A stretch of DNA of 64,000 bases from Cohnella panacarvi Gsoil 349 (GTDB lineage: Bacteria; Bacillota; Bacilli; Paenibacillales; Paenibacillaceae), in contig NZ_KI911563.1 in assembly GCF_000515335.1 (NCBI RefSeq), forward strand, positions 139,735 through 203,734, given 5' to 3'. Numbering within the stretch: position 1 is the stretch's first letter; every line of letters begins with the position of its first letter. Positions 3,250 through 37,230 of this stretch are shown in pieces. Below the pieces are notes generated by a model that was not told the DNA's origin, did not search any database, and saw nothing but the letters and a program-made list of their open reading frames with translations. The translations under genes were made by a program, and so were the position numbers.

Positions 3250-3516
3250 TTTGAACGATATCCCCTTCGCTCAGGAAAGAGGAAACTTCGGCAATTCTGA
3301 GTAACGGGGATATCGATATAAAGGACTGAGCAATAACGACCAATCGACAGTTATTTGAGATATTACGTGCCCTAATAATAAAATAACTACAGATCGATTG
3401 TTATTTGAACGAGATTACGCCGGATTACCGATTTCCACTCCGAATACCTGCGAATTGTTGTTATTTACGGGCAAGGTGGGATTTTTAGAGAAAATAGATG
3501 CAATTGGTTGTTATCT
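3250..3516 (+). repeat. Composite intergenic repeat, family A, copy 1
   Basis: A non-coding block directly after the ftsY terminator. It opens with a 60-bp imperfect dyad at 3256-3315 (arms CGATATCCCC and GGGGATATCG, inner CTCAG/CTGAG). Four A/T-rich modules follow, each ending in GTTATTT or GTTATCT. The G of these motifs falls at 3350, 3400, 3460 and 3510 (spacing 50, 60, 50). The first two modules are themselves dyads (AATAAC...GTTATT around 3332-3356, and AAATAAC...GTTATTT around 3381-3406). The same blocks in the same order and spacing recur at 6101-6374. No coding potential is seen. Confidence 0.85.
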
Positions 3517-3592
3517 AGCTTACGCGCAGAGAGATCGCCAATGTTTACGAACCTAGATTCCTTGGGATTAGGTGGGCTGCAAGAAAGATGTT

Positions 3593-3671
3593 AAGGTAAA
3601 TGCCTTGACATCTCAATCGCTATTGCGTATCATAAGGAACGTAGATGGGCTGTAAAGGTATTTTCCTTGAC
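3593..3671 (+). promoter_or_regulatory. Pair of related 17-bp dyads around the ylxM promoter (possible operator)
   Basis: AAGGTAAATGCCTTGAC at 3593-3609 and AAGGTATTTTCCTTGAC at 3655-3671 match at 14 of 17 positions. Each contains the dyad AAGG...CCTT, and each is preceded by GGGCTG. The first overlaps the -35 box; the second lies in the untranslated leader, about 25 bp before the ylxM start. The layout resembles an operator pair, but no regulator is known; YlxM itself is an HTH protein. Confidence 0.4.
3605..3633 (+). promoter_or_regulatory. Sigma-A promoter for ylxM-ffh
   Basis: TTGACA (3605-3610), 17-bp spacer, TATCAT (3628-3633). This is a near-consensus housekeeping promoter about 65 bp upstream of the ylxM start, just after the family A repeat block. 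Confidence 0.8.
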
Positions 3672-3696
3672 TTGGTTTACGAAGGGAGCAGCCGAC

Positions 3697-4056
3697 GTGC
3701 ACGGACAGAACGCGCTGGAGAAGACGAACCGCATGAACGTGTTGTTCGATTTTTACGGGCCGTTATTGACGGAGAAGCAGCAGACGTTCTTGAAATGTTA
3801 CTTTCACGACGATTATTCGCTCGGCGAAATCGCCGCGGACTTCGACATTAGCCGTCAGGCGGTGTACGAGCATCTGAAGCGGGCGGAGCAAGCGCTGGAA
3901 GATTACGAGTCGAAGTTGCGGCTTGCGGAGCGCCATCATCAGATCCAAGCCGGCTTGGACCAGCTCGAGAAGCAAATTTCTGAGCTGCGGCCCGACACCC
4001 GCGACAACATACAACGGACAATCAACCTGCTCAGGGGAGCAGAAGCGAATAGTTAA
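3697..4056 (+). CDS. ylxM: YlxM family HTH protein (UPF0122), SRP-associated
   Basis: 119 residues from GTG 3697. That start has a GAAGGGAG ribosome-binding site 8 bp upstream; the longer frame from TTG 3667 does not. The protein is a short sigma-70 region 4-like helix-turn-helix ([20 protein letters not shown], residues ~40-60) followed by a C-terminal helix ([16 protein letters not shown]...). It is nearly always linked to ffh. In several Firmicutes and in streptococci it has been implicated in SRP assembly or regulation. It is co-directional with ffh, 36 bp upstream. Whether it binds DNA or RNA cannot be told from sequence. Confidence 0.9.
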
Positions 4057-4092
4057 CAACGGTATCCGTTCTTAAGAAGGGGGGATGAGCTT

Positions 4093-5478
4093 ATGGCGTT
4101 CGAAGGATTGACATCTCGACTGCAGAACGTGTTCGGCAAGCTGAAGGGCCGCGGCAAAGTATCGGAAGACGACGTGAACGAAGCGATGCGGGAAGTGCGT
4201 CTTGCGTTGCTCGAAGCGGACGTTAACTTCAAAGTCGTCAAAGATTTCATCGCCAAAGTGAAAGAACAAGCGCTCGGGCAAGAGGTTCAGAAGAGCTTTA
4301 CTCCGGCGATGGTCATTATCGATATCGTCAACAAAGAGCTGACCGAGCTGATGGGCGGCACGCAAGAGAAGCTTGCGAAGTCGAACAAGCCTCCGACGGT
4401 CGTCCTGATGGCCGGTTTGCAAGGCGCGGGTAAGACGACGCTGACCGGCAAGCTCGCGAAGCTGCTGCTGACGCAGAAGAACAATCCGCTCCTCGTCGCG
4501 GGCGACATATACCGTCCGGCGGCGATCAAGCAGCTCGAGGTGCTCGGCGGACAGATCGGCGTACCGGTATTCACGCTGGGCGACCAGGTCAGCCCCGTCG
4601 AGATCGCGAAGCAAGGCGTCGCGAAGGCGAAGGCCGAGGGGTACGATTATGTGCTTATCGATACGGCGGGCCGCTTGCAGATCGACGAAGAGCTGATGCA
4701 GGAAATCAAGGATATTCATTCGGCTGTCGAACCGGACGAAGTGTTGCTCGTCGTCGACGCGATGACCGGCCAAGAAGCGGTCAACGTCGCGAAGAGCTTC
4801 CACGAGCAGCTCGCCCTCACCGGCGTCGTGCTGACGAAGCTCGACGGCGATACGCGCGGCGGGGCGGCGCTGTCGGTCAAAGCCGTTACCGGCTGCCCGA
4901 TCAAATTCGCCTCCACGGGCGAGAAGATCGATCAGCTCGAAGCGTTCCATCCGGACCGGATGGCGTCGCGGATTCTCGGCATGGGCGATATGCTGTCGCT
5001 CATCGAGAAAGCGCAGACGAACATCGACGCGGAGAAAGCCAAAGAGCTCGAACGCAAGATGCGCACGGCGGAATTCTCGTTCTACGACTTCCTCGAGCAG
5101 ATGGAGCAAGTTCGCAACCTAGGTCCGCTCGAGCAGTTGCTCGATATGATGCCCGGCATGGGCAAGCTGAAGAGCAATCCGAACTTCAAGATCGACGAAA
5201 AGCAGATTAATCGCACCGAAGCGATCGCGAAGTCGATGACCCACGCCGAGAAGCTGAAGCCCGACATCATCAACTACAGCAGACGCAAGCGGATCGCCGC
5301 CGGAAGCGGAACGACGGTCGCCGACGTCAATCGCCTGCTCAAGCAGTTCGAGGACATGAAGAAGATGATGAAGCAATTCTCCGGCATGATGGGTCCGAAC
5401 GGCAAGCCGAAAGGCGGCATGGGCGCGCTGAAGAATATGTTCGGCGGCAAGAACAAAGGGCCGAGATTTCCGTTTTAA
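4093..5478 (+). CDS. ffh: Signal recognition particle protein Ffh (SRP54)
   Basis: 461 residues. This GTPase recognises signal peptides emerging from the ribosome, together with the small cytoplasmic RNA. The N domain starts MAFEGLTSRLQNVFGKLKG. The G domain has G1 GLQGAGKTTLTGK (~residue 107), G3 DTAGRLQ (~190) and G4 TKLDGDTRGG (~249). The Met-rich M domain runs ~300-461, with FLEQMEQVRNLGPL, the RNA-binding NYSRRKRIAAGSGT helix, and a Met/Gly-rich tail (MKKMMKQFSGMMG). Start ATG follows AAGGGGGGATGAG. It is followed by rpsP in the usual order. Confidence 0.98.
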   Translation: MAFEGLTSRLQNVFGKLKGRGKVSEDDVNEAMREVRLALLEADVNFKVVKDFIAKVKEQALGQEVQKSFTPAMVIIDIVNKELTELMGGTQEKLAKSNKPPTVVLMAGLQGAGKTTLTGKLAKLLLTQKNNPLLVAGDIYRPAAIKQLEVLGGQIGVPVFTLGDQVSPVEIAKQGVAKAKAEGYDYVLIDTAGRLQIDEELMQEIKDIHSAVEPDEVLLVVDAMTGQEAVNVAKSFHEQLALTGVVLTKLDGDTRGGAALSVKAVTGCPIKFASTGEKIDQLEAFHPDRMASRILGMGDMLSLIEKAQTNIDAEKAKELERKMRTAEFSFYDFLEQMEQVRNLGPLEQLLDMMPGMGKLKSNPNFKIDEKQINRTEAIAKSMTHAEKLKPDIINYSRRKRIAAGSGTTVADVNRLLKQFEDMKKMMKQFSGMMGPNGKPKGGMGALKNMFGGKNKGPRFPF

Positions 5479-5526
5479 CTAACATAACCATTGCGATTTT
5501 ATTTCATCAAGGAGGTGAAAGTTAAC

Positions 5527-5799
5527 ATGGCAGTTCGTATTCGTCTGAAACGTATGGGTGCTCACAAAGCTCCTTTTTACCGCGTTGTCGTTTCCGATTC
5601 CCGCTCTCCTCGCGACGGACGCTTCATCGAAGAGATCGGCATCTATAACCCGGTCGCTGCGCCAGCGCAAGTTCAAATCGACGAGGAAAAGGCTCTCAAA
5701 TGGCTGCAAAACGGCGCGCAAGCGTCCGATACCGTTCGCAACCTGCTGAGCAAAGCCGGCGTCATGAAGAAATTCCACGAATCCAAGCTCCAGAAGTAA
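5527..5799 (+). CDS. rpsP: 30S ribosomal protein S16
   Basis: 90 residues from ATG 5527, preceded by a strong AAGGAGGTGAAAG site. The frame extends 12 codons further upstream, but that extension contains the ribosome-binding site and is not coding. It starts with the family signature [21 protein letters not shown]16 helps assemble the 5' domain of 16S rRNA. It sits between ffh and khpA, as in Bacillus. Confidence 0.98.
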
Positions 5800-5825
5800 T
5801 CGTCCTAATACCGGAGGGTTGAACC

Positions 5826-6059
5826 ATGGAACAATTGATTCGGGTTATCGCCCGAGCACTCGTGGATCATCCGGAAGACGTGCAAATTCAGGTCAAGGAA
5901 GACGCGAGAGGCCTGGTGTACGAGCTTTCCGTTCATCCCGACGATGTCGGCAAAGTCATCGGCAAGCAGGGGCGGATCGCGAAAGCGGTTCGCACGGTAG
6001 TCTCTTCCGCCGCGGTTAAAGAGCGGAAGCGCGTCATCGTGGATATTGTTTCTGATTAA
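5826..6059 (+). CDS. khpA: KH-domain RNA-binding protein KhpA (YlqC)
   Basis: 77 residues, a single type II KH domain. The GxxG loop is visible as IGKQGRIAK, inside the segment DDVGKVIGKQGRIAKAV. KhpA forms an RNA chaperone complex with KhpB (Jag/EloR) that affects cell elongation in streptococci; the role here is inferred from family. It is the last gene of the ylxM-ffh-rpsP-khpA unit, followed within 10 bp by an intrinsic terminator. In B. subtilis ylqD and rimM come next; here the thiamine operon intervenes. Confidence 0.95.
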   Translation: MEQLIRVIARALVDHPEDVQIQVKEDARGLVYELSVHPDDVGKVIGKQGRIAKAVRTVVSSAAVKERKRVIVDIVSD

Positions 6060-6069
6060 CGGCTAAGAA

Positions 6070-6099
6070 ACCGGACCGCAGCGATGCGGCCGGTTTTTT
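6070..6099 (+). terminator. Intrinsic terminator after khpA
   Basis: Stem ACCGG(A)CCGCA / TGCGGCCGGT with a GCGA loop and one bulged A, followed by six T. Confidence 0.9.
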
Positions 6100-6100
6100 G

Positions 6101-6374
6101 TTATTGTAACGATATCCCTCTCGCTCAGGGGAGGAAGCAGGCGGCGGTCGCTTTCCTGAGCGAAGGGGATATCGGGATAAGAAATGAAATAATCGCAACA
6201 TATGATAGTTATTGTGAGCAGATAAGAGCCCATATGAAAAATAACAACAGATCGATAGTTATTAGAGTGCTGTGTCGTCGAATGGCCGCTTTCCGACTCA
6301 AGTAATTGCAAATGGTTGTTATTTTAGCGAGTAACGAGAGTTTTAGAGAAAATAAATGCAAATGGTTGTTATTT
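6101..6374 (+). repeat. Composite intergenic repeat, family A, copy 2
   Basis: Same architecture and orientation as the block at 3250-3516. It opens with a dyad at 6110-6174 whose 20-bp arms (CGATATCCCTCTCGCTCAGG and the complement of CGATATCCCCTTCGCTCAGG) pair at 18 of 20 positions. The GTTATT modules have their G at 6208, 6258, 6318 and 6368: spacing 50, 60, 50, exactly as in copy 1. Shared blocks include ACAGATCGAT(A/T)GTTATT and TTTTAGAGAAAATA(A/G)ATGCAA. It starts right after the khpA terminator. 6375-6463 shows nothing recognisable. Confidence 0.85.
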
Positions 6375-6463
6375 CGCACATTGCTGCTTCTTCGCTAGCC
6401 GGCTCATGCGCTGGCCGACCAGAGCGCCGAGGTACCGTCCTGCCGCAGCGTACCGCGTTGGGG

Positions 6464-6492
6464 TTGACAGGAAACGAATTCCAAGTTACGAT
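6464..6492 (+). promoter_or_regulatory. Sigma-A promoter for the thiamine operon
   Basis: TTGACA (6464-6469), 17-bp spacer, TACGAT (6487-6492). The predicted start of transcription falls a few bases before the TPP aptamer. Confidence 0.8.
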
Positions 6493-6503
6493 TTGTTTGT
6501 AAA

Positions 6504-6595
6504 TTCCACTAGGGGCGCCCGCATGGGCTGAGATAAGGCTACCGCCTTGGTCCCTTTGAACCTGATCTGGGTCATGCCAGCGTAGGAAAGTGGGC
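6504..6595 (+). promoter_or_regulatory. TPP (THI-element) riboswitch aptamer
   Basis: It carries all the conserved pieces of the thiamine pyrophosphate aptamer in order: 5' strand CCACTAGGGGCGCCC, GGGCTGAGA (6525-6533), a variable P3 arm, then TGAACCTGATCTGGGT (starting about 6557), CATGCCAGCGTAGGAAA and the closing AGTGG (6589-6593), which pairs with CCACT (6506-6510). TPP binding normally turns off the downstream synthesis genes. About 215 nt separate it from thiC, and two hairpins lie between them. Confidence 0.97.
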
Positions 6596-6667
6596 AATGT
6601 TCGTCATACGATCGCGGTACGGTAGCGTGGGCCTATGGGCTCGCCTTGTCGGCATGCCGCGCGTTAA

Positions 6668-9688
<3,021 letters not shown>

Positions 9689-9692
<4 letters not shown>

Positions 9693-10555
9693 ATGGGAAA
9701 CTCGATTTCAAGCTATATGTCATCACGGGAGAAAATTATCATCCGGGACGCAGCATGCTTGAGGTGATGGAAGCGGCATTGAAAGGCGGCGCGGACATCG
9801 TGCAGCTACGGGACAAGGACATCTCCAAGCGGGATTTGCTGGAGAAAGCCAAGAGACTGAAAGACTTAACGGCTAAATACAACGTGCCGCTTATCGTGAA
9901 CGATCATCCGGACGTCGCGCTCGCCATCGACGCGGACGGCGTTCACCTTGGCCAAGACGATATGCCGATCGCGGTCGCGCGCCGAATCATGGGACCCGAT
10001 CGGATCATCGGCATTTCGACCCATCGGATCGAGCAAGCCCGCGAAGCCGAGCAAGCGGGGGCGGATTATATCGGGGTAGGTCCCGTGTACGCGACCGGAA
10101 CGAAACCGGGCAGGCAGCCCGTGACGACCGCATACGTATCCGAGGTTGCCGCAGAGATACGGATTCCGTGGGTCGCCATCGGCGGCATTACGCCCGATAA
10201 CGCGTTCGAGGTGCTGAACGCGGGGGCGAACAGGCTGTGCGTAGTGTCCGCTGTCGTCGGAAGCGAGGATCCCGAAGCGGTATGCCGGCGGTTCATAGCG
10301 TTAATCGAAGCGAGGGATGGGTCGCCGAATGCTTCGGTTGAATCGAAAGCCACGGGAATCTTCGTGACCGTGAACGGCCGGCGATCGCGGACGCAAGCCT
10401 CGACGCTCCTCGAATTGGCAGAGCAGTATGAATTGCAGGATAGGCGGGTCGTGGCCGAGATGGACGGGGAATTCGTTCCGCGCAGAAGCTGGGGCGAAGC
10501 TCCGCTGCGCGTCGGAGCAACGGTTGAATTCGTGCATTTCGTCGGAGGAGGTTGA
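9689..10555 (+). CDS. thiE: ThiE-ThiS fusion: thiamine-phosphate synthase with C-terminal sulfur-carrier domain
   Basis: 288 residues in one uninterrupted frame. Residues ~1-215 are ThiE, which joins HMP-PP and thiazole phosphate to thiamine phosphate: QLRDKD, VNDHPDVALAIDADGVHLGQ, GVGPVYATGTK and the phosphate loop AIGGIT are present. After a short linker (DGSPNASVESKATG), residues ~222-288 are a ThiS ubiquitin-fold carrier: it starts IFVTVNG and ends FVHFVGGG, the diglycine terminus that ThiF adenylates and ThiG uses. ThiE alone is normally ~210-220 residues and ThiS ~66; the sum fits. No separate thiS is seen in the operon. The start ATG overlaps the thiF stop (ATGA). A base error removing a stop codon between two genes is possible, but no ribosome-binding site or start is seen at the junction. 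Confidence 0.9.
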
Positions 10556-11376
10556 TGCGGATGAAGGACACGTTATCGAGCGATCCGCTTGTCATCGGCG
10601 GACATGCGCTTGACTCGCGGTTTTTCCTCGGTACGGGCAGATTCCCGAGCCCGGCCGTCATGCAACAGGCGCTTATGGCTTCGGAAGCAGAGGTCATTAC
10701 GTTCGCGGTTCGCCGCATCAATCTCGAAGAGGTCGCGGACGACAGCGTCCTGCAGCACGTAGCCGATCGCGGCTATATTTATTTGCCGAATACGTCGGGG
10801 TCGAGCAACGCCGACGAAGCGGTTCGCATCGCGCGATTGGCGCGCGCCGCCGGGCTGGGCAATTGGATCAAAGTCGAAATCAGCGCCGATCCGCGCACGT
10901 TGCTGCCGGACCCGATCGAAACGCTGAGAGCGACGGAACGTCTCGTGCAAGAGCAATTCATCGTGCTGCCTTATACGTCGGACGATCCTATCCTATGCCG
11001 CCGCCTGCAAGAAGCGGGAGCCGCAGCCGTCATGCCGGGCGGATCGCCGATCGGGACGGGGCTCGGCCTATTGAATCCTTATAACCTCGGCTTGATCGCC
11101 GAAGAAGCTGTCGTTCCCGTCATCGTGGACGCCGGACTCGGATCCGCGCAAGACGTCGTCCAGGCGATGGAGCTTGGCGCGTCGGGTATTCTGGCCAATA
11201 CGCCGGTCGCCAAAGCGCAAGATCCCGTCGCCATGGCCCGGGCCATGAAACTGGCGGTCGAAGCGGGAAGGCTGTCTTATCTGGCGGGGCGCATTCCGAA
11301 GAGAAGGTATGCGTCGGCCAGCAGCACGTCCGAAGGCTCATTGTACGAGGCCGTAATGGCGGAAGGGAAGGCTTAG
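10555..11376 (+). CDS. thiG: Thiazole synthase ThiG
   Basis: ~273 residues. A TIM-barrel enzyme forming thiazole phosphate from deoxyxylulose phosphate, dehydroglycine and the ThiS thiocarboxylate. Visible motifs are LGTGRFPS, ITFAVRRIN, the Schiff-base lysine in NWIKVEI, LLPDPIETL, VLPYTSDD, MPGGSPIGTG and VIVDAGLG. ATG 10555 overlaps the preceding stop as TGATG, with GGAGG 6 bp upstream; ATG 10561 is an equally acceptable start. The ThiS partner is the C-terminal domain of the gene directly upstream. Confidence 0.97.
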   Translation: MRMKDTLSSDPLVIGGHALDSRFFLGTGRFPSPAVMQQALMASEAEVITFAVRRINLEEVADDSVLQHVADRGYIYLPNTSGSSNADEAVRIARLARAAGLGNWIKVEISADPRTLLPDPIETLRATERLVQEQFIVLPYTSDDPILCRRLQEAGAAAVMPGGSPIGTGLGLLNPYNLGLIAEEAVVPVIVDAGLGSAQDVVQAMELGASGILANTPVAKAQDPVAMARAMKLAVEAGRLSYLAGRIPKRRYASASSTSEGSLYEAVMAEGKA

Positions 11377-11377
11377 C

Positions 11378-13350: not shown

Positions 13351-13367
13351 TGACGATGCTTTATGAT
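13339..13367 (+). promoter_or_regulatory. Putative promoter for rimM-trmD
   Basis: TTGCGG (13339-13344), 17-bp spacer, TATGAT (13362-13367), overlapping the 3' end of thiD. The -10 is good, the -35 weak. It would uncouple rimM-trmD from the riboswitch-controlled operon. Confidence 0.5.
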
Positions 13368-13403
13368 AGTAGCTGAACTTTGTACCTGAAGGGAGCTGCT
13401 TCC

Positions 13404-13925: not shown

Positions 13926-13927
13926 CG

Positions 13928-14677: not shown

Positions 14678-14691
14678 GCTGTCATGCAGCA

Positions 14692-14957
14692 GACGGCTGC
14701 ATCAGGGGAACCTTCGCAGCCAGTATTCGTGCATGGTATGTCGGTCCGAATCGCACCCATGGGGAGTAACGCCTGCAATCCTGCAGATCATGCTGCCCGA
14801 ATCGAATCGTTTCGGAGTTACGGCTGCAATCCTGCAGGTAATGAGCAAGAAAAGTCGCGCTAAACCGCGCGCCCATACATAACACCTGCAAGTTCGCAGG
14901 TATCGTCTTGTAACGCATGGTGAGCTTGCGATTGGCTGTATCCTGGCAGTTATTTTA
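14692..14957 (+). repeat. Dispersed CTGCA dyad modules, family D
   Basis: Short dyads recur through the trmD-rplS spacer: ATGCAGC...GCTGCAT (14694-14712), GCCTGCAATCCTGCAG (about 14771-14786), GGCTGCAATCCTGCAGG (about 14822-14838), ACCTGCAAGTTCGCAGGT (about 14884-14901), and a decayed GGCTGTATCCTGGCAG (about 14934-14949). The middle copies are preceded by TAAC or TTAC. Spacing between the last four is about 51-62 bp. No terminator T-tracts and no coding potential are seen. Confidence 0.6.
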
Positions 14958-15063
14958 TTTACACTTATCGCTCGGAATACTTAACAGGCTTTTCTAACAA
15001 TATCAAGAGCCGACAGACTGGATAGACCGGAGATCAAGATCGCGATTTCGCGATAAAATCCCC

Positions 15064-15549: not shown

Positions 15550-15558
15550 TGGCGTCAA

Positions 15559-15592: not shown

Positions 15593-15626
15593 GCATTTTC
15601 TCCAAGACGAATCGAGGCGATAAAGA

Positions 15627-20793: not shown

Positions 20794-21204
20794 ATGGATG
20801 TCCGGCATCAATCCTCCCGCTCGAAGCCTCGTCGTTCTACGGACAATCGAGCGGCTACGGGCCGAATGGGCGAACAAGCGGCGGCAGACTATCTCGCGAA
20901 TTTAGGTTACCGGATCGTCGCCCGCAATTGGCGCTGCCGCATCGGAGAGATCGATCTGATCGCAGAAGACGGCGGCACGCTCGTGTTCGTGGAAGTGCGC
21001 GCCCGCACGAATCCGACGAAGTTCGGCACCGCGCTCGAAGCGGTGACCCCCCTCAAGCAACGCCAAGTCCGCGAGGTTGCGGCGTATTATTTGGCGCAGC
21101 GCAAGTCGGCATCACCCCCGTCCGTACGGTGCGACGTCGTCGCCGTCACGTTCCGCCTAGACGGCACTATCGCGGAACTCAGGCACATTCCCGGCGCGTT
21201 CTAA
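20794..21204 (+). CDS. yraN: YraN family (UPF0102) nuclease-fold protein
   Basis: 136 residues. The start ATG follows GAGGAGGCTCG; GRMGEQAAADYLANLGYRIV marks the start of the conserved domain. The restriction-endonuclease-like core is RIGEIDLIAEDGGTLVFVEV; the usual E-x-K of the fold reads E-V-R here. FGTALEAVTPLKQRQV and DVVAVTF complete the family pattern. Function is unproven; YraN proteins are often near rnhB, as here. The non-coding tandem array starts 25 bp after the stop. Confidence 0.9.
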   Translation: MDVRHQSSRSKPRRSTDNRAATGRMGEQAAADYLANLGYRIVARNWRCRIGEIDLIAEDGGTLVFVEVRARTNPTKFGTALEAVTPLKQRQVREVAAYYLAQRKSASPPSVRCDVVAVTFRLDGTIAELRHIPGAF

Positions 21205-21228: not shown

Positions 21229-21930
21229 CGCCATCCCTCCGAATAAAGGTCAATTTGACCTCTAAATCGCCGAAACCCCGACGCGCCTCCGAAAAAAGGG
21301 TCAATTTGACCTCTAAATCGCCGAAACCCCGACGCGCCACCGAATAAGGGTCAATTTGACCTCTAAATCGCCGAAACCCCGACGCGCCTCCGAAAAAGGG
21401 TCAATTTGACCTCTAATCCGCCGAAACCCCGACGCGCCTCCGAAAAAGGGTCAATTTGACCTCTAAATCGCCGAAACCCCGACGCGCCTCCGAAAAAGGG
21501 TCAATTTGACCTCTAAATTGCCGAAACCCCGCCACACCTCCGAATAAAGATCAATTTGACCTCTAATCCGCCGAAACCCCGACGCGCCACCGAATAAGGG
21601 TCAATTTGACCTCTAATCCGCCGAAACCCCGACGCGCCACCGAATAAGGGTCAATTTGACCTCTAAATCGCCGAAACCCCGCCACACCTCCGAATAAAGA
21701 TCAATTTGACCTCTAATCCGCCGAAACCCCGACGCACCACCGAATAAGGGTCAATTTGACCTCTAATCCGCCGAAACCCCGCCACACCACCGAATAAAGG
21801 TCATATTGACCTCTAATCCGCCGAAACCCCGACGCGCCACCGAATAAGGGTTAATTTGACCTCTAAATCGCCGAAACCCCGACGCGCCTCCGAATAAAGG
21901 TCATATTGACCTAATCCGCCACACCCCCGC
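21229..21930 (+). repeat. 14-copy tandem array, 50-bp period (family B)
   Basis: The core GGTCAATTTGACC recurs with its TCAATTTGAC part beginning at 21250, 21301, then every 50 bp to 21901. That is fourteen copies; only the first interval is 51. Between cores come CTCTAAATCG or CTCTAATCCG, CCGAAACCCC, GACGCGCC and (T/A)CCGAATAA. The core is a dyad of 6-7 bp arms around one T. Two late copies read GGTCATATTGACC, which keeps 6-bp arms. 21501-21650 and 21651-21800 are near-identical three-unit blocks. There are no unique spacers, so this is not a CRISPR. 21931-22038 shows only the hflK ribosome-binding site. Confidence 0.97.
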
Positions 21931-24795: not shown

Positions 24796-24810
24796 ATTGG
24801 AAGAGGGGAT

Positions 24811-25692: not shown

Positions 25693-25721
25693 GGTTTATG
25701 ACTCCTAGTAAATATATTAAT

Positions 25722-25751
25722 TTCTTATATACCAACCGTCTCTATTATACT
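25722..25751 (+). promoter_or_regulatory. Weak promoter candidate for tkt in the divergent region
   Basis: TTCTTA (25722-25727), 18-bp spacer, TATACT (25746-25751). Good -10, poor -35, as often seen for activator-dependent promoters. The surrounding A/T-rich stretch (25705-25735) could hold the LysR site. Confidence 0.3.
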
Positions 25752-25790
25752 GGGAACAAGAGTTGGATACTAGGCTAGGAGGCGATTACA

Positions 25791-27824: not shown

Positions 27825-27827
27825 GAT

Positions 27828-29396
27828 TCAACCGGCTTCCTCGATGTTCTTGTCCAAGCAACGATAGCTGACCGCCTCGGCGACGTCCTCGGAGCGAATC
27901 GTCTCCCTGCCGGCGAGATCGGCTATCGTGCGGGACACTTTCAGAATGCGGTCGTGCGCCCGGTAGCTGAGCCCGAGCTGCTCGTACACGAGGTGCAGTA
28001 ACTGCTCCGCGTCGGCCGCCATCATAGCCGCTGCGTACGTATGCAGCAACGAGCCTTGCAATTCGCTGTTCCAACGAATCCCGTACTTCGCGTAACGGGA
28101 TTGTTGGCGTTCAGAGGCTTCGGTGATGAGACTCCTGGCTTCCTCGGAAGACAGCGAGCTCCGTTCTTTGAGGCGAACCGGCTGGCGCGGAAGCTCGACT
28201 TGCAGATCGAGCCGGTCCGCGAGCGGCCCGGACATTCGCGCTCGATACCTCGCGATTGCGAGCGGGCTGCACGTGCAAGGCCGATCGTCCGGCGACCCTC
28301 CGGCGAATCCGCAAGGGCACGGATTCATGCTGGCCGCCAACAAGAATCGGGCGGGGAAGCGGCATACGCCGCGGGCACGGCCGATCGTGACCTCGCGATC
28401 CTCGATCGGCTGCCGCAGCGCTTCCAAGCTCGCTCTGGAGAACTCCGCCAGCTCGTCGAGGAACAAGATTCCGTGATGGGCAAGCGTGACTTCCCCGGGC
28501 TTCGGAATCGAGCCGCCGCCGATTAAGCCCGCCATCGAGATCGAGTGATGCGGGGAGCGGAAAGGCCGCCGGCGAATCAACCCTTCGCGGCCGTTGCCCA
28601 GCTTGCCGCTCACGCTGACGATCTTCGTCACCATGAGCGATTCGCTCCCGGATAACGGCGGCATGATCGTAGGGAGCCTGCGGCATAGCATCGTCTTGCC
28701 CGTCCCGGGCGGGCCGACGAACAAGATGTTGTGCATGGCGCTGGCCGCGATCATGAGCGCGCGTTTGCCTTGCGCTTGGCCGATGACGTCGGCGAGATCG
28801 AGTTCACCGTCGGGCGTATCCATCGCGGGGCCGAATCGCTCGGGAGCAGGGCCGATCGTCTCGGATCTCGAAGCGTCACTATCCAGGCTGTCCACCAAAC
28901 CGCCCGTCCATTGCGCGAGCGAGCGGATTCCGAATACCTCGACGCCCGTAATGAGCCGGGCTTCCTCGACCGCGTCCTCCGGCACGATGACTCGCCTTAC
29001 GCCCGCGCTCCGCGCCAGCTCGGTCATCGGCAGCACGCCGGGTACGTTCCGTACCGAACCGTTCAACGCAAGCTCGCCGATGAACAGCGTCTGCTCGAGC
29101 AGCGCCGGGTCGACTTGCCCGCTCGCGCATAAGATGCCTGCCGCGATGGCGAGATCGAACGCGCTGCCTTCTTTGCGCAGATCGGCAGGGGCGAGATTAA
29201 TCGTAATCCGGTCCATCGGAAACTTCATGCCGCCGTTCTTGATCGCGGCCCGGACGCGTTCGACCGACTCCCGAACGGCCGAATCCGGCAAGCCGACAAC
29301 GGACACCTGCGGCAACCCCGAACAAATATCGACTTCGACCTCGATGAATCTACCCTCTACGCCAAGAACGCTGGCGCTTAGCAATTTCACGTACAT
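27828..29396 (-). CDS. comM: ComM/YifB family AAA+ helicase-like protein (Mg-chelatase type)
   Basis: 522 residues on the minus strand from ATG 29396. The frame stays open upstream to 29750 only because it runs through the 51-bp array. The N-terminal Lon-like (ChlI) domain starts YVKLLSASVLGVEGRFIEVE and contains VSVVGLPDSAVRESVERVRAA. The AAA+ core has Walker A VGPPGTGKTMLCRRLP (~residue 220) and Walker B GILFLDELAEFSR. The C-terminal Mg-chelatase domain has CPCGF and ...CTCSPLAIARYRARMSGPL. ComM promotes branch migration during natural transformation in Vibrio. dprA, another transformation gene, lies 3 kb away. Confidence 0.93.
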   Translation of the reverse strand: MYVKLLSASVLGVEGRFIEVEVDICSGLPQVSVVGLPDSAVRESVERVRAAIKNGGMKFPMDRITINLAPADLRKEGSAFDLAIAAGILCASGQVDPALLEQTLFIGELALNGSVRNVPGVLPMTELARSAGVRRVIVPEDAVEEARLITGVEVFGIRSLAQWTGGLVDSLDSDASRSETIGPAPERFGPAMDTPDGELDLADVIGQAQGKRALMIAASAMHNILFVGPPGTGKTMLCRRLPTIMPPLSGSESLMVTKIVSVSGKLGNGREGLIRRRPFRSPHHSISMAGLIGGGSIPKPGEVTLAHHGILFLDELAEFSRASLEALRQPIEDREVTIGRARGVCRFPARFLLAASMNPCPCGFAGGSPDDRPCTCSPLAIARYRARMSGPLADRLDLQVELPRQPVRLKERSSLSSEEARSLITEASERQQSRYAKYGIRWNSELQGSLLHTYAAAMMAADAEQLLHLVYEQLGLSYRAHDRILKVSRTIADLAGRETIRSEDVAEAVSYRCLDKNIEEAG

Positions 29397-29402
29397 AACA
29401 AA

Positions 29403-29445
29403 AAGCACCTTCCTCCGACGTAATCCTACGTACGGGAAGGTGCTT
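29403..29445 (-). promoter_or_regulatory. Hairpin burying the comM Shine-Dalgarno
   Basis: On the minus strand, an 11-bp perfect stem AAGCACCTTCC / GGAAGGTGCTT (plus strand 29435-29445 and 29403-29413) with an inner ACGTA/TACGT pairing. TTTTT and GTT lead straight into the comM ATG at 29396. The GGAAGG in the 3' arm is the only ribosome-binding site in view. It could be a translational block, an attenuator or a terminator. Confidence 0.7.
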
Positions 29446-29512
29446 CCTTCCGATTCATATCCATTTGCATCCAGTCTATCGCGGCACGGCGACGGTGTCA
29501 ATCCTCTCATCC

Positions 29513-29741
29513 GATTGTCGCAGGGAGCGACAATCGGGCGCGGAAACGCCGCCGCAAGTGCAACATTGTCGCAGGGAGCGACAATCGGGCGCGGAAACGC
29601 CGCCGCAAGCGCAACATTGTCGCAGGGAGCGACAATCGGGCGCGGAAACGCCGCCGCAAGCGCAACATTGTCGCAGGGAGCGACAATCGGGCGCGGAAAC
29701 GCCGCCGCAAGTGCAACATTGTCGCAGGGAGCGACAATCGG
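29513..29741. repeat. Tandem array, 51-bp period, five dyad copies (family C)
   Basis: The dyad ATTGTCGC-AGGGA-GCGACAAT recurs five times at a 51-bp period (starts about 29514, 29565, 29616, 29667, 29718). The copies are separated by CGGGCGCGGAAACGCC, GCCGCAAG and (T/C)GCAAC. The copies differ at only one or two positions. Because 51 is a multiple of three, open frames run through it on both strands, but they are repetitive and have no start signals. It lies between the comM 5' end and the sucC promoter. Confidence 0.95.
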
Positions 29742-29855
29742 GCGTGACAATGACTTTCAGTATGCGCTCGATACGCAACAACAGCATGATTTTACCGACT
29801 AACGCGCATCCTAGATTTGTTGTGCAGGTTTCAATCTAACTATGAGATTAAACCA

Positions 29856-29884
29856 TTGCCAAATTAGACTAAAAAAGATATGAA
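29856..29884 (+). promoter_or_regulatory. Sigma-A promoter for sucCD
   Basis: TTGCCA (29856-29861), 17-bp spacer, TATGAA (29879-29884). The leader to sucC is about 200 nt; a second -10-like TTACAAT lies near 29914. 29742-29855 and 29930-30070 show no further feature. Confidence 0.6.
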
Positions 29885-30091
29885 AAAGTGAGGAACGATA
29901 AAACATTTAGTGTTACAATGGTGGAGGTTTTGTTAACCATTCTCTCGAATCGTTATCAGAATTCGACAGCGAATGGTTTATGACATAAACGTTATCGCGT
30001 CTTCTAACGGAAGACGGAATACCGTTTATGCGTACATACAGCAAAACGAATCACAGATATATTGAACGCAAAACGGGAGGATGCTTGGATC

Positions 30092-31252
30092 ATGAACATT
30101 CATGAGTATCAAGGCAAAGAAGTACTGCGTCAATACGGCGTCGCCGTACCGCGCGGCAAAGTGGCGTTTACCGTCGAAGAAGCCGTCGCTGCGGCCAAAG
30201 AACTAGGCGGTCCTGTTCAAGTCGTCAAAGCTCAAATCCATGCCGGCGGCCGCGGTAAAGCGGGCGGCGTCAAGATCGCGAAAAGTCTGGACGACGTCGC
30301 GAACTATGCGAAAGAGCTGCTCGGCAAAGTGCTCGTCACGCACCAAACGGGTCCTGAGGGCAAAGAAGTAAAACGCCTGCTCATCGAAGAAGGCTGCGAC
30401 ATCAAGAAGGAATACTACATCGGCGTCGTCGTCGACCGTGCTACCGGCCGCGTCGTCATGATGGGTTCCGAAGAAGGCGGCATGGACATCGAGGAAGTCG
30501 CTGCCCATTCCCCCGAGAAAATCATCAAAGTCGTCGTGGATCCTGCCGTCGGCTTGCTTCCGTTTCAAGCGCGCGCCCTCGCTAACGACATTAAGATTCC
30601 AGGTCCGCTCGTGGGCAAAGCGGTCGGGTTCATGCTCGCGCTCTATAAAGCGTTCGAGGACAAAGATTGCTCGATCGCCGAGATCAACCCGCTCGTCGTA
30701 ACGGGCGACGGCAACGTCATGGCGCTCGACGCGAAGCTGAACTTCGATTCCAACGCGCTGTTCCGCCATAAGGACATCCTGGAGCTTCGCGACTTGGACG
30801 AGGAAGATCCGAAAGAAATCCAAGCGTCCAAATTCGACCTCAGCTACATCGCCCTCGAAGGCAATATCGGCTGTATGGTTAACGGCGCCGGCCTCGCGAT
30901 GGCGACGATGGACATCATTAAATACTTCGGCGGCTCGCCGGCTAACTTCCTTGACGTAGGCGGCGGCGCGACGAAGGAGAAAGTAACCGAAGCATTCAAA
31001 ATCATCCTTTCCGACGCGAACGTCAAAGGGATTTTCGTTAATATTTTCGGCGGCATCATGAAGTGCGACATTATCGCCGAAGGCGTCGTCGCTGCGGCTC
31101 GCGAGCTCGGTCTGGACCGTCCGCTCGTCGTACGTCTCGAAGGCACGAACGTTGCCAAAGGCAAAGAGATCTTGAACGCATCCGGCCTGAACATCGTCGC
31201 GGCCGACTCGATGTCCGACGGAGCTCAAAAAATCGTGGCGCTAGTGAAGTAA
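30092..31252 (+). CDS. sucC: Succinate-CoA ligase (ADP-forming) beta subunit
   Basis: 386 residues from ATG 30092, preceded by GGGAGG; the open frame to 30062 is leader. An ATP-grasp subunit of the TCA-cycle enzyme that makes ATP from succinyl-CoA. The N-terminus [41 protein letters not shown] and [18 protein letters not shown] are family hallmarks. sucD follows after 30 bp. Confidence 0.98.
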
Positions 31253-31282
31253 CTAGGGAACCTACCGGGGAGTGTATAAATC

Positions 31283-32209
31283 ATGAGTATTCTGATCGAT
31301 AAGAACACCAAGGTGATCACCCAGGGCATCACGGGCGCGACGGGAGCGTTCCATGCCAAAGGTGCTTTGGAATACGGCACGCAAATGGTCGGCGGCGTGA
31401 CGCCGGGCAAAGGCGGCCAGACGATCGATTTCGACTTGGAGAACGGCAAGAAAGTCACGTTGCCGATCTTCAATTCCGTGAAAGAAGCGGTCGCCGCTAC
31501 CGGCGCTACCGCATCCGTAATCTACGTCGCGCCTCCGTTCGCGGCCGACTCCATCATGGAAGCCGTAGACGCGGAGCTCGACCTCGTCATCTGCATCACG
31601 GAAGGCATTCCGGTTCTCGATATGGTCAAGGTCACGCGTTACATGGAAGGCAAGAAAACGCGTCTAATCGGACCGAACTGCCCGGGCGTTATTACGCCGG
31701 GCGAAATCAAGATCGGCATCATGCCGGGCTACATCCACAAGAAGGGCCACGTAGGCGTCGTGTCCCGTTCCGGTACGCTCACGTACGAAGCGGTGCATCA
31801 ATTGACGACCCGCGGCATCGGCCAATCTTCCGCTGTCGGAATCGGCGGAGACCCGGTCAAAGGCTCCGAATTCATCGACATCCTGAAGCTGTTCAATGAA
31901 GACCCGGATACGTACGCGGTCATCATGATCGGCGAAATCGGCGGCACGGCGGAAGAGGAAGCCGCCGAATGGATCAAAGCGAACATGACGAAGCCTGTCG
32001 TCGGCTTCATCGGCGGCGCTACGGCTCCTGCGGGCAAACGCATGGGCCACGCGGGCGCAATCATCTCCGGCGGCAAAGGAACGGCTGCCGAGAAGATCGC
32101 AACGCTCGAAGCGTGCGGCGTCCGCGTCGCTCCGACGCCTTCCGACATGGGCTCGACGCTTGTCGCCGTCCTCGAGGACAAAGGCCTGCTGGAAAAATGC
32201 AAAGGTTAA
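31283..32209 (+). CDS. sucD: Succinate-CoA ligase alpha subunit
   Basis: 308 residues. It carries the CoA-binding Rossmann domain ([20 protein letters not shown]) and the histidine that is phosphorylated during catalysis, in [14 protein letters not shown] (~residue 255). GPNCPGVI and [12 protein letters not shown] are also present. The start follows CCGGGGAGTG. The unit ends at a terminator about 50 bp downstream. Confidence 0.98.
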
Positions 32210-32260
32210 TGTTATAGTAACAGCACAATAAGCACAAACGCTTTAACGGCAAGGCAAGCA

Positions 32261-32300
32261 GCCTTCCGCCCCCTCGGTTCGAGGGAGTGGAGGGCTTTTT
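32261..32300 (+). terminator. Intrinsic terminator after sucCD
   Basis: Long stem GCCTTCC-G-CCCCCTC / GAGGGAGTGGAGGGC with a GGTTC loop region, followed by TTTTT. Confidence 0.85.
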
Positions 32301-32334
32301 GTCTTACGGGCGGGAAGAAAGGTCGGGAAAGACG

Positions 32335-33528
32335 ATGGGTAACGATCATGCGTGGAAAGCGAGAAAGAATCGGCCGAGATTAACGCTAGAAGACGTCCGC
32401 AATTCCGGCATCACGAGAGGGCTGCTGCTTGCGCTGCACGAGGCCGAAGGAGTAGGGGATCTCGCGATTTGCCATGTCGTGCAATACGGGATCAACCATC
32501 CGTTGCGCCTGCGGAGCGACGTAGGTACGTTCCGGGAGCGGGATTGGAGGGAGATGGGGCTTGCTCCGTCTCAATGCGAGGCGGTCATCGCCAGCATCGG
32601 ACCCGAAGCGCATCGGCGCCGCATCAGACGGTGCCGCGATCGGGGGATCGGAATTATGACGTTCTTGGACGAACGTTATCCGCCATTGCTTAGGGAAATC
32701 GCCGATCCTCCCTGGATCCTCTATTATAGGGGGAATTGGGAGCTGGCCCACAAGCCGGCGGTGGCCATCGTCGGCACGCGGCAAGCGACGGCGTACGGCC
32801 GTAAAATCGCGGAGGACCTCGCTGCCGGCTGCGCGCGGCGCGTTACGATCGTCAGCGGGCTGGCCAGAGGCATCGACTCCGCTGCGCATAGAGGAGCGCT
32901 GCGCGGCGAATGCCGCACGATTGCCGTGCTCGCTACGCCAGTAGACGTCTGTTACCCGCCCGAAAACCAACTCCTGTACGACCACATCGTCAAGGACGGC
33001 CTTATCCTATCGGAGACGCCGCCGGAAGCCGTGATCCACCCCGCTAAATTCCCGATGCGCAACCGGATCATCGCCGGGCTGTCGATGGGCGTCGTCGTCG
33101 TGGAAGCGGCCAGGCGGAGCGGCGCTCTCATTACGGCGGACCTCGCGATCGACTATGATCGGGACGTGTTCGTCGTTCCGGGGCCGATCAGCTCGCCTCG
33201 CAGCTCGGGAGCGCTCGAATACTTTCGGAAGGGTGCGGAGCCGGTGCTTGACGAGAGCGATATTTTCCAAGCTTATAAACATCGGTTGCCCAAGGAACGC
33301 CGCAACTCCCGCGCTTCCGATAAAGTAACGGAGCCGTATTCGAAGCCTCGGATCCTGTCGAATGACGAGCGGGCTATCTATGATTTGATAGCGGATCAGC
33401 CTCGTTCCATCGACGAGCTGGCGGAACAATCTGGCATGCAGTTTGGACTTTTACAATCGGTTCTGCTATCTTTAATGATAAAACGAACGATTCAGCAGCA
33501 ACCCGGTTCTATATATAAGGTCCTCTAA
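32335..33528 (+). CDS. dprA: DNA-processing protein DprA
   Basis: 397 residues from ATG 32335 (GGGAAAG upstream). The frame extends to 32287 inside the preceding terminator and is not coding there. DprA loads RecA on incoming single-stranded DNA during transformation. The N-terminal SAM-like helical region is ~25-100. The Rossmann core has VAIVGTRQATAYGRKIAEDL, VTIVSGLARGIDSAAHRGAL, FPMRNRIIAGLS and VVVEAARRSGALITADLA. The C-terminal winged-helix DML1-like domain is ~335-397 (AIYDLIADQPRSIDELAEQS). Confidence 0.96.
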   Translation: MGNDHAWKARKNRPRLTLEDVRNSGITRGLLLALHEAEGVGDLAICHVVQYGINHPLRLRSDVGTFRERDWREMGLAPSQCEAVIASIGPEAHRRRIRRCRDRGIGIMTFLDERYPPLLREIADPPWILYYRGNWELAHKPAVAIVGTRQATAYGRKIAEDLAAGCARRVTIVSGLARGIDSAAHRGALRGECRTIAVLATPVDVCYPPENQLLYDHIVKDGLILSETPPEAVIHPAKFPMRNRIIAGLSMGVVVVEAARRSGALITADLAIDYDRDVFVVPGPISSPRSSGALEYFRKGAEPVLDESDIFQAYKHRLPKERRNSRASDKVTEPYSKPRILSNDERAIYDLIADQPRSIDELAEQSGMQFGLLQSVLLSLMIKRTIQQQPGSIYKVL

Positions 33529-33579
33529 AGTAGCCGATAGGCTTGCCGAGGCGGACTCGTCGACCGTAGGAGAGGAGGA

Positions 33580-35697
33580 ATGGACGTGGCCGATTCACTC
33601 GTAATCGTGGAATCCCCGGCGAAAGCCAAGACGATCGGTAAATATCTCGGAAGCAAATATATCGTTAAAGCGTCCATGGGCCATATTCGCGATTTACCCA
33701 AGAGTCAAATCGGGGTAGAAGTCGATAACGACTTCCATCCGAAGTACATCACGATCCGCGGCAAAGGCAACGTGCTTAAGGAATTAAGAGACGCTAGCAA
33801 AAAGGTGAAAAAAGTGTATTTGGCGGCTGACCCGGACCGCGAAGGGGAAGCGATCGCCTGGCACCTCGCCCATTACTTGGAACTGGACGAGAAGGACGCC
33901 TGCCGCGTCGTATTCAACGAAATTACGAAGCAAGCGGTCAAAGACGCGTTCAAGACGCCGAGACCGATCGATATGGATCTCGTCAACGCCCAGCAAGCGA
34001 GAAGGGTGCTGGATCGCCTGGTAGGCTATAAGATCAGCCCGTTGCTCTGGAAGAAGGTCAAGAAAGGGCTAAGCGCGGGGCGCGTCCAATCCGTCGCCGT
34101 GAAGCTCATCTATGATCGCGAGAACGAGATCAAGGCGTTCGTCCCCGAAGAATATTGGAGCATAACCGCGCATCTGATGAAAGGGAAGAACGGCTTCGAG
34201 GCGAAGTTCCATGCGCTCGGCGGCGAGAAGAAGGAGCTCCGCAGCGAAGCGGAGGTGAAGGAAATCGTCGCGCTTCTGAACGGCAAACCGTTCGAAGTAG
34301 GAGAAGTGAAAGAGAAGGAGCGGATGCGCAATCCGTCCCCTCCTTTTATTACCTCTTCGCTGCAGCAGGAAGCGGCCCGCAAGTTGAACTTCCGCGCGTC
34401 CAAGACGATGCAGATCGCCCAGCAGCTTTATGAAGGCGTCGATCTCGGCAAAGAAGGCACGGTCGGCCTCATCACCTACATGCGTACCGATTCGACGCGG
34501 ATTTCTCCCGTCGCGCAAGAGGAAGCCAAGGCATTCATCGAAGAACGCTACGGAGAGAAGTTCTATCCGGAGACGCCGCGAGTATATGTGAAAAAGAACG
34601 CAAACGCCCAGGACGCGCATGAGGCGATCCGCCCGACGTCCGTCCTGCGCGACCCTGAATCGGTTAAATCGTTCTTGTCTCGCGATCAACTGCGGCTTTA
34701 CAAGCTTGTTTGGGAGCGTTTCGTCGCGAGCCAGATGTCGTCCGCGATACTCGATACGATGACGGTAGATCTATTGAACGGACCGGTAACGTTCCGGGCC
34801 AACGGGTCGAAGATGAAGTTTCCTGGCTTTACGAAGGTTTACGTGGAAGGCAGCGACGACGATACGCCCGACGAGGACCGTCTGTTACCGGCGCTTGCGG
34901 CGGGCGAGAGCGTTGCCGCGCAGCAGATCGATCCGAAGCAGCATTTCACGCAGCCGCCGCCGCGTTATACCGAAGCGCGTCTCGTACGCGCGCTCGAGGA
35001 GCTGGGCATTGGCCGTCCGAGCACGTACGCGCCGACGCTGGAGACGATTCAGAAGCGTTATTACGTCGCCATCGAAGAGAAGAAATTCGTACCGACGGAG
35101 CTGGGAGAACTCGTGGTCCAGTTGATGGAGGAGTTTTTCCCGGAAATTCTCGACGCCGAATTTACGGCGCATATGGAAGGCGATCTCGACCATGTCGAGG
35201 AAGGAACGCAGGAATGGGTCAACGTCATCGGCGATTTCTACAAGTCGTTCGAGAAACGGCTTGCCGTCGCCGAGGAAGAAATGAAAGAAGTCGAAATCCG
35301 CGATGAGCCTTCGGACGAAAATTGCGACAAATGCGGTAGTCCGATGGTGTATAAGATGGGCCGGTTCGGCAAGTTCCTGGCATGCTCCGGGTTCCCGGAT
35401 TGCCGGAACACGAAGCCGATCGTGAAGGCGACCGGCGTCACTTGCCCGAAATGCAAGGAAGGGCATATCGTCGAACGCCGCAGCAAGAAGGGGCGCATGT
35501 TCTACGGCTGCGACAAATATCCGGAATGCGACTTCGTCTCCTGGGATAAACCGATCGCCAAGCCATGCCCGGAGTGCAGCGGCATGATGGTCGAGAAACG
35601 AGTGAAGGGCGATACGCAATATCATTGCACCGTCTGCACGCACTCGGAGGAAGCCGCGGAACCGGATGAAGCGGCCGAGGCGGATGTCGATTATTAA
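33580..35697 (+). CDS. topA: DNA topoisomerase I
   Basis: 705 residues. A type IA enzyme that relaxes negative supercoils. The toprim domain starts [18 protein letters not shown] and has [15 protein letters not shown]. The active-site tyrosine is in [14 protein letters not shown] (~residue 300). Three C-terminal four-cysteine zinc ribbons are intact: [10 protein letters not shown]...C...[11 protein letters not shown]...C...C and [10 protein letters not shown]...C...C, ~585-690. GAGGAGGA precedes the ATG. It is followed by trmFO, as in Bacillus. Confidence 0.98.
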
Positions 35698-35734
35698 GGA
35701 TTATTGAAGCAGAAGCAGAAAGAAGGTTTACGTT

Positions 35735-37081
35735 GTGAGCGTGGTTCAATCCGTGACGGTCATCGGCGCAGGTCTAGCCGGCAGCGAAGCCGCGTGGCAG
35801 ATCGCCAAGCTGGGCGTCCCCGTCACTTTATACGAAATGCGTCCGGTGCGGCGCACGCCTGCGCACCATACGGACGGCTTCGCGGAGCTCGTCTGCAGCA
35901 ACAGTCTCAGAGCGAACGGACTGACGAACGCCGTCGGCGTGTTGAAGGAAGAGATGAGAAGGCTCGACTCGCTCATCTTGGCGAGCGCCGACATGCATGC
36001 CGTACCGGCAGGCGGGGCGCTGGCCGTCGATCGCGAGGGTTTCTCCGGCGAAGTTACGCGCACGCTGAGGGAGCATCCTCTTATTACGGTGATCAACGAA
36101 GAGATCAAAGAAATTCCGAAGGACGGCATCGTCGTCGTCGCGACGGGTCCTCTTACTTCTCCGGAGTTATCGGAGAGCATAAAGCAGTTGATGGGAGAAG
36201 AATATTTCTACTTCTTCGACGCGGCGGCGCCGATCGTCGAGAAGGATTCGATCGATATGGATAAGGTGTATCTCGCTTCGCGCTACGATAAAGGCGAGGC
36301 GGCGTACTTGAACTGTCCGATGACGGAAGCGGAGTTCGACGCGTTCTACGAGGCGCTTACGACGGCCGAAGTGGCGGCGGTCAAAGAGTTCGAGAAGGAA
36401 ATGTACTTCGAAGGCTGCATGCCGATCGAAGTAATGGCGAAGCGGGGCAAACAGACCGTGCTGTTCGGCCCGATGAAGCCGGTCGGTCTGATCGACCCGC
36501 GCACGGGGAAATTGCCGCACGCCGTTATCCAGCTTCGGCAAGATAACGCGGCCGGAACGCTGTACAACATCGTCGGCTTCCAGACGCACTTGAAGTGGGG
36601 CGAGCAGAAGCGCGTATTTTCGATGATTCCCGGTCTAGAGAACGCGGAATTCGTCAGATACGGCGTTATGCATCGCAATACGTTCATCAACTCTCCTAAG
36701 CTGATGTTGCCGACGTATCAATTCCGCGGACGCGAGACGTTGTTCTTCGCCGGCCAGATGACGGGCGTCGAAGGTTACGTGGAGTCCGCCGCGTCCGGGT
36801 TGATCGCGGGTCTTAACGCCGGACGGCTGGCGAAAGGCTTGGAGCCGCTGACGCTTCCGCAGCACACGACGCTCGGCAGCATGGCGCAATATATCACGAC
36901 GGCCGATTTCAAGCATTTTCAACCGATGAACGCGAACTTCGGGCTGTTCCCGCCTTTAGGCTATCGCATAAGAAGCAAGAAAGAAAAGAACGATGCCATC
37001 GCCGCGCGGGCGTTGGAGAGCGTTGACGCATTAAGCGAGGAGCTTCGGGACACCAAGAGCAGCGACGTATCCGTTCATTAG
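35735..37081 (+). CDS. trmFO: tRNA (uracil-54) methyltransferase TrmFO (folate- and FAD-dependent)
   Basis: 448 residues from GTG 35735 (AGAAAGAAGG upstream). It makes ribothymidine 54 in tRNA using methylene-tetrahydrofolate. The FAD-binding fold is [20 protein letters not shown]. The family-specific [20 protein letters not shown] segment carries a conserved cysteine. [20 protein letters not shown] and [20 protein letters not shown] follow. In B. subtilis codV (xerC) comes next; here hslV follows directly after a 180-bp spacer. Confidence 0.97.
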
Positions 37082-37118
37082 AAGCAGCGGCAGCTTCCAT
37101 CGGAGGCCGCTGCTTTGC
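37082..37118 (+). terminator. Possible terminator after trmFO
   Basis: 10-bp stem AAGCAGCGGC / GCCGCTGCTT directly at the stop codon, but only a short T-tract (TTTG). Confidence 0.55.
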
Positions 37119-37151
37119 CGCTTTATTCACGACGAATGCAAAATCGGGAAA

Positions 37152-37230
37152 GCTCCGAATAGAGGTGCATATGCCTCTAATCGCGCCGTTCCTCCAATCC
37201 CCGCCAATAAGGGTTTCATGCCTTTGACCC
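37152..37230 (+). repeat. Two decayed units related to the 50-bp array (family B')
   Basis: CTCCGAATAGAGG-TGCATATG-CCTCTAATC is followed about 48 bp later by CCAATAAGGG-TTTCATG-CCTTTGAC, with CCAATCCCCGCC between. The flanks (CTCCGAATA, CCTCTAATC, AATAAGGG) match the 21.2-21.9 kb units, while the dyad centre has changed but still pairs. The block lies directly upstream of hslV. Confidence 0.6.

Follow-up and report, generated by a model that had tools for sequence, protein, structure and literature searches.

The window, a 64-kb stretch of DNA (G000:C1:139735-203734) within the 4.77-Mb single-contig genome of Cohnella panacarvi, raises the question of why spacers between transcription units should carry dyad repeats of seemingly unrelated sequence at one similar spacing. 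The repeats pointed out in the original prediction are all present in the listed spacers, and the pattern to which they belong is larger than first claimed. The features concerned are the following.

3332 to 3515, plus strand: quad 1 (GTTATT family), with modules at 3332-3355 and 3382-3405 (T1) and at 3443-3465 and 3493-3515 (T2)
6188 to 6373, plus strand: quad 2 (GTTATT family), with modules at 6240-6263 (T1) and at 6301-6323 and 6351-6373 (T2)
14766 to 14956, plus strand: quad 3 (CTGCA family), with dyad centres at 14779.5, 14830.5, 14892.5 and 14942.5
21236 to 21912, plus strand: tandem array of 13.5 copies with a period of 50 bp and the dyad AATAAGGGTCAATTTGACCTCTAA
29514 to 29744, no strand assigned: tandem array of 4.5 copies with a period of 51 bp and the dyad ATTGTCGC-N5-GCGACAAT
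37157 to 37226, plus strand: weak dyad pair, AATAGAGGTGCATATGCCTCTAAT and ATAAGGGTTTCATGCCTTTG
3256 to 3315, plus strand: copy of a dispersed hairpin beside quad 1, CGATATCCCC...GGGGATATCG
6110 to 6174, plus strand: another copy of that hairpin, next to quad 2

The GTTATT spacers hold copies of a fixed four-dyad element, which we call a quad. Its modules are of two kinds, T1 (consensus AATAACAACAAATCGATAGTTATT) and T2 (consensus AATAACTGCAAATGGTTGTTATT), and T2 read backwards resembles T1. Centre-to-centre spacing is 50/60.5/50 bp in quad 1 and 60.5/50 bp between the three clear modules of quad 2 (starts 6240, 6301 and 6351), the first module of which, at about 6188-6213, is degenerate, recognizable by eye only and under the scan threshold. 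The CTGCA spacer (14692-14957) also proved to be a quad, spaced 51/62/50 bp, with a fourth dyad (CTGTATCCTGGCAG, 14936-14949) that is the weakest of the four; a search for its first two modules, allowing up to three mismatches, found no match elsewhere in the genome. The spacer at 37152-37230 contains a pair of weak dyads with centres near 37169.5 and 37216.5, about 47 bp apart and therefore off the ladder of spacings described below; the pair is possibly a decayed element. The spacing of about 50 bp once proposed for all these sites thus stands, as 50 or 51 bp, for most of them, but gaps of 60-62 bp also occur and the pair at 37 kb departs from it. Less secure is the statement that none of the repeats lies in an intra-operon gap: the 14.7-kb spacer separates a trmD-like from an rplS-like gene, and trmD and rplS are co-transcribed in other Bacilli.

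The next gene downstream of the array at 21236-21912 encodes an SPFH/Band 7 domain, and the protein at 20794-21204, which we take to be YraN, has its nearest named loci in two Cohnella (62% and 57% identity). A ComM-like gene on the minus strand and a sucC-like gene on the plus strand flank the array at 29514-29744; in the 640-aa ORF that runs over this array, the array precedes the ChlI domain, which starts at residue 138. Across the genome, GGTCAATTTGACCTCTAA with up to two mismatches gave 93 strand matches against 0, in six clusters. Other features of the window are a TPP riboswitch (6501-6605) ahead of a thiC-like gene and a 42-bp unit that, in two near-perfect copies, fills the gap after an hslV-like gene (37811-37890).

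In the whole genome, the T1 pattern has 98 matches (0 for the control) and the GTTATT-type T2 pattern 148 (4 for the reversed control). Counting elements of at least three modules each in the genome sample described below, the window and 40 contexts yielded 58 GTTATT elements, some of them neighbours or local duplicates and hence not all independent. Of 134 spacings between like modules, 130 are 49-51 bp; at the middle gap, where the module type switches, 60 of 64 values are 59.5-61.5 bp. Overlap with called genes is at most 20% in 57 elements and exceeds 20% in one. Judged by T1 count, 50 elements are asymmetric and 8 symmetric; the order T1-T1-T2-T2 is present in 46, and some of the quads are extended by further modules at 49-50 bp. 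The borders of the quads are not sharp. Between copies of the 46 full elements, identity is 79.5% in the modules and 33.5% in the linkers, as compared with 25.4% for shuffled linkers, and linker lengths are exactly 26/37/27 in 27 of them. Since linker identity remains above the shuffled level, the copies share descent; their linkers have become nearly randomised, and the dyads and lengths have been retained. A further quad of this genome, built of GGAA dyads at 51/62/51 bp, came from a model-free scan (locus L043).

The same period dominates the tandem repeats. TRF was run on the window and on a genome sample of 40 evenly spaced 20-kb stretches (800 kb), overlapping rows being merged and periods of at least 20 kept. 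It found 42 arrays, 26 non-coding and 16 over called ORFs. The preferred genome-wide period anticipated by the original prediction is indeed found, since 18 of the 26 non-coding arrays have a period of 50 (6 arrays) or 51 (12 arrays), two of these 18 being made up of GTTATT elements; the remaining eight have periods of 20-42. Among the ORF-overlapping arrays, 13 of 16 have periods of 21, 24, 30, 33, 36 or 60, and three a period of 51. Consensus units centred on the dyad display several stems (TAGCGGCA, GCGTTG, TTGTCGC, GGTC, ACCCG), and these unrelated families all keep 50/51, as a shared phase would have it. By inspection, they have a common outline, WTAR-stem-loop-stem-YTAW, which lends support to the link between families that had been conjectured. 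Linkers of the TTGTCGC arrays look unrelated from one array to another. More generally, the arrays are homogenised internally and differ between loci; together with the extra modules at 50 bp in some quads, this makes the earlier suggestion of a common amplification mechanism partly right. In other non-coding sequence, a tandem family of period 40-42 (GGAAGTAGGGGACAAGCGTGCGAACCCCC) occupies L039 2812-3110 and L067 13179-13347, and a coding stretch at L048 10458-11864 has about 47 copies of a 30-bp repeat.

As had been expected, the dyads change less than their flanks, in arrays as well as in quads. In the arrays, 3.8% of letters in the dyad core (231/6032) deviate from the array consensus, against 9.5% in the linkers (690/7234), and the 23-bp core lies below the linker in 27 of 33 array rows, above it in 5 and level with it in 1 (Wilcoxon p 1e-4). 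Of these rows, 20 come from the sample and window, and the remainder (13) from loci found in different searches and from further Cohnella genomes; one array is counted twice among them (L013 and L017), arrays in which fewer than two units reached a 70% match are not included (this applies at least to L045 and to one array of L144), and the automatic choice of dyad is doubtful in L054, L055 18613, L068 8591 and L105. A CRISPR array was rejected, since whole units including linkers repeat in the examined arrays, where unique spacers would be expected. The tandem ~43-bp units of the sopC-type plasmid centromere contain one palindrome each, and in this respect resemble the present arrays; unlike them, the latter occupy many chromosomal loci and comprise several dyad families.

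The spacing is most informative outside this genus. We considered 40 loci from eight genera, two of them beyond the order, each chosen by one TTAGCG..CGTTAWT dyad, so that module sequence was selected and spacing was not. With a module model of WTARC half-sites plus four genome-specific bases, these loci contain 162 modules as compared with 0.4 in shuffles. Adjacent spacings fall on discrete rungs in 119 of 123 cases: 21 at 40-41 bp, 66 at 50-52 bp, 18 at 61-62 bp and 14 at 72-73 bp, the four others being 45, 87, 106 and 113 bp. The step of this ladder is about 10.6 bp (resultant length 0.935 at 10.6 bp, for spacings that are non-independent, many coming from few genomes), and the rungs at 40, 51, 62 and 72 bp do not fall exactly on multiples of 10.5 bp. 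Exactly four modules are present in 30 of the 40 loci, one locus has none, another a single module, and the remaining loci have other numbers. Of the four-module layouts, 17 are near 51/62/51, 9 near 51/72/51, 3 at 40/72/40 and one at 51/41/40. Middle gaps of 62 and of 72/73 bp occur together within one genome, G128, and G291 carries a tandem array of period 41. These one-turn steps (40/41, 51, 62, 72) agree with the shared helical phase that had been guessed from the window. A model-free search for resemblance between 23-mers at every shift, made on the non-coding part of the genome sample with known elements masked, showed no ladder peak, its signal being dominated by overlapping hairpins and by a 5-bp microsatellite in L040; this microsatellite is of CTCTG type, spans about 300 bp (L040 ~6478-6790) and lies in a stretch without called genes. 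Among contigs of a viral collection with one such dyad, one of six has a quad of 51/73/51, a perfect one at L300 3014-3211 (IMGVR_UViG_2636415620_000001), at a site that may be viral or host flank.

The pattern is thus genome-wide in this organism and present in several families of Bacilli. Among the other 36 congeners, T1 with two mismatches has a single match, in G015. Of 60 genomes searched for the TTGTCGC dyad, five have it, the present one included, and all five belong to the same genus; several show a repeated 51-bp spacing, and other loops are seen as well. Arrays of period 50-52 were found at 2 of 18 loci of related genomes (stretches of G028 and G032) and, in another set, at 4 of 20 (G003, G006 and G028); around homologues of the gene at 20794 there were none in 30 loci (2 Cohnella, 4 Paenibacillus and 24 others). 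Of 246 genomes in the order, 169 contain the pattern TTAGCG-N9-11-CGTTAWT, as do 69 of 200 in the class; judged by eye, its counts are at about the reversed-control level in most of them and far above it in a few (49 vs 2 in G128, 26 vs 2 in G138 and 27 vs 3 in the present genome).

On balance, we favour the view that the dyads are phased sites, between genes, for a putative oligomerising DNA-binding protein, and that the arrays are amplified modules. Each 23-24-bp dyad would be the binding site for the protein, possibly as a dimer, and the fixed spacings would place several dyads on one helix face, allowing the bound protein to form one compact complex. The basic unit would be the quad, that is, two dyads, a gap longer by one to three turns, and two further dyads. 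Quads would exist as dispersed copies in which selection keeps dyads and spacing while linkers drift, and tandem arrays would arise through local amplification of one dyad with its linker, the spacing being retained. Such complexes may have a structural or regulatory role at the ends of transcription units. The earlier suggestion of a protein lying along one face of the DNA is thus matched as regards phase, the protein itself being what we infer.

The way in which the half-sites vary bears directly on this proposal. In the other genera, 90 changes are one-sided and 4 are paired doubles, as counted with a threshold of 15 of 18, which trims heavily altered modules; in the own genome the figures are 130 and 14 for T1 and 238 and 7 for T2. 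Because changes are mostly one-sided, the dyads appear to consist of half-sites rather than of a required stem. Linker 1 is no more complementary to the reverse complement of linker 3 within an element than between different elements, either in the own genome (0.383 vs 0.386, 46 elements) or in the other genera (0.386 vs 0.459, 30 elements), and a fold-back hairpin was accordingly rejected. Some pairing may occur, on the other hand, given that the 14 paired doubles of T1 compare with 3.1 expected and that both sets show a slight self-complementarity of the central linker (0.407 vs 0.388 and 0.403 vs 0.380 when shuffled, p 0.03). An apparent preference for G.T wobble at position 4, which is mixed in 108 of 162 modules (80.7 expected), was discounted, as the search pattern itself selected about one mixed module per locus. 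One-sided changes, unpaired linkers and one-turn steps together favour, and do not prove, proteins on double-stranded DNA rather than hairpins. It is odd for one sequence-specific protein that the inner stems differ and that CTGCA is found, at the stringency used, at one locus.

Placement on the chromosome is relevant to the alternatives. The sign of GC skew switches in two intervals, 340-500 kb and 2.76-2.90 Mb. Of 54 T1 loci, 49 are oriented with the leading strand, as compared with 504 of 634 called genes, a modest excess (p 0.023); the origin boundary lies in an unsampled interval holding one T1 locus (2,851,510), and without that locus the count is 48 of 53. In convergent gaps, where the genes give no direction, 12 of 13 elements follow the leading strand. 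Asymmetric elements lie behind a co-directed upstream gene in 44 of 50 cases, five do not, and one has no called upstream gene. The gaps that hold elements are tandem (39), convergent (13), divergent (3) or of undefined type (3), the figures for gaps of at least 200 bp being 93 tandem, 22 convergent and 23 divergent. Even spacing along the chromosome was rejected (CV 0.97, as random), as was an origin-to-terminus trend (uniform distribution, KS p 0.27). The dispersed hairpin found beside quads 1 and 2 is a separate matter: CGATATCCCCTTCGCTCAGG, with up to three mismatches, has 92 genome matches and none for the reversed control, and 9 of its 16 sites in the sample are no more than 150 bp away from a quad or 50/51 array, involving 6 of the 36 loci of that kind, as if the hairpin inserted at quad and array edges.

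Alternatively, the elements could be REP/REPIN-like mobile palindromes moved by a single-strand transposase, the spacing reflecting the shape of the moving unit, which we regard as unlikely. Such an origin would account for dispersed, non-coding palindromes in many copies, for linker homology indicative of common descent and for the leading-strand bias, as if the elements entered at forks. REPINs and BIMEs are REP doublets associated with RAYT transposases, and REPINs in P. fluorescens prefer spacings of 71 and 110 bp (PMC3116915, PMC6006769); they share with our elements the conserved ends, freer spacers and occasional tandem clusters. They have two dyads, however, whereas quads have four with a spacing that moves in helical steps, and by inspection of consensus units the outer box here appears to be WTAR..YTAW instead of GT[AG]G, the foot found at the base of REP hairpins. 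The Y1_Tnp domain (PF01797), present in 12 of 24 genomes searched, has no match in the own genome, nor in the array or quad carriers G003, G006, G010, G028, G032 and G037. It does have matches, several of them fragmentary, in seven of the eight measured outside genomes (G128, G138, G185, G258, G195, G407 and G291; not G037), where a REP/RAYT link is possible. Inert copies would further be expected to lose dyads at the linker rate, and transposition leaves the one-turn steps unexplained; the lack of fold-back complementarity between linkers 1 and 3 also speaks against it.

Still less probable is that the elements act as RNA, forming hairpins either in 3′ UTRs or within small RNAs. The predominance of asymmetric elements behind co-directed genes would suit this explanation, and the dyads can form short stems, but changes are mostly uncompensated and steps of about 10.6 bp fit double-stranded DNA. 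In the window the TPP riboswitch alone reaches the Rfam gathering score, and a search of 14 loci with an E limit of 1 gave eight matches, one being a T-box that lies outside the quad of L253 and the others weak and chance-like; a known structured RNA was rejected, as neither search gave a convincing match over a quad. Functionless minisatellites that arise through slippage and owe their period to the machinery of replication or repair would fit the internal homogeneity of arrays and the extra modules at 49-50 bp, but are very improbable because quads, with their longer middle gap, are not simple tandem repeats, dyads and lengths are retained after linker drift, and the other non-coding arrays have other periods.

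If the dyads are indeed phased protein sites, quads may work like clusters of phased dyads such as the ComK boxes of Bacillus, K-boxes of the form AAAA-N5-TTTT that are set a discrete number of turns apart, at 8, 18 or 31 bp (PMC3536758). Identity with K-boxes was rejected, as dyad sequences and spacings differ: K-boxes are two short promoter boxes, while quads consist of four 23-24-bp dyads spaced about 51/62/51 bp, have many copies, most of them behind genes, and are of lineage-specific sequence. The intergenic TAACTGA repeats of Beggiatoaceae (PMC4679880) likewise form many short-repeat sets between genes, but they are described as direct repeats of a heptamer instead of dyads at helical spacing. 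A literature search of open-access scope gave no description of such quads, and a query by dyad letters returned, among the matches listed, titles that look unrelated.

We give about an even chance to the broader proposition that these elements constitute a four-dyad chromosomal class across families of Bacilli, in which geometry is kept while dyad sequence is rewritten, the quads serving as phased nodes for a putative protein and the 50/51-bp minisatellites deriving from their modules. If a protein is involved, this would be a nucleoprotein structure common to several families of Bacilli, which we found under no name, present in dozens of copies in this genome and following a precise geometric code. 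The ladder would then offer a natural spacing series for measuring the helical repeat in vivo, and the comparison of phased with unphased probes a direct route to the protein. It would also account for the single-period minisatellites found throughout the genome of this organism.
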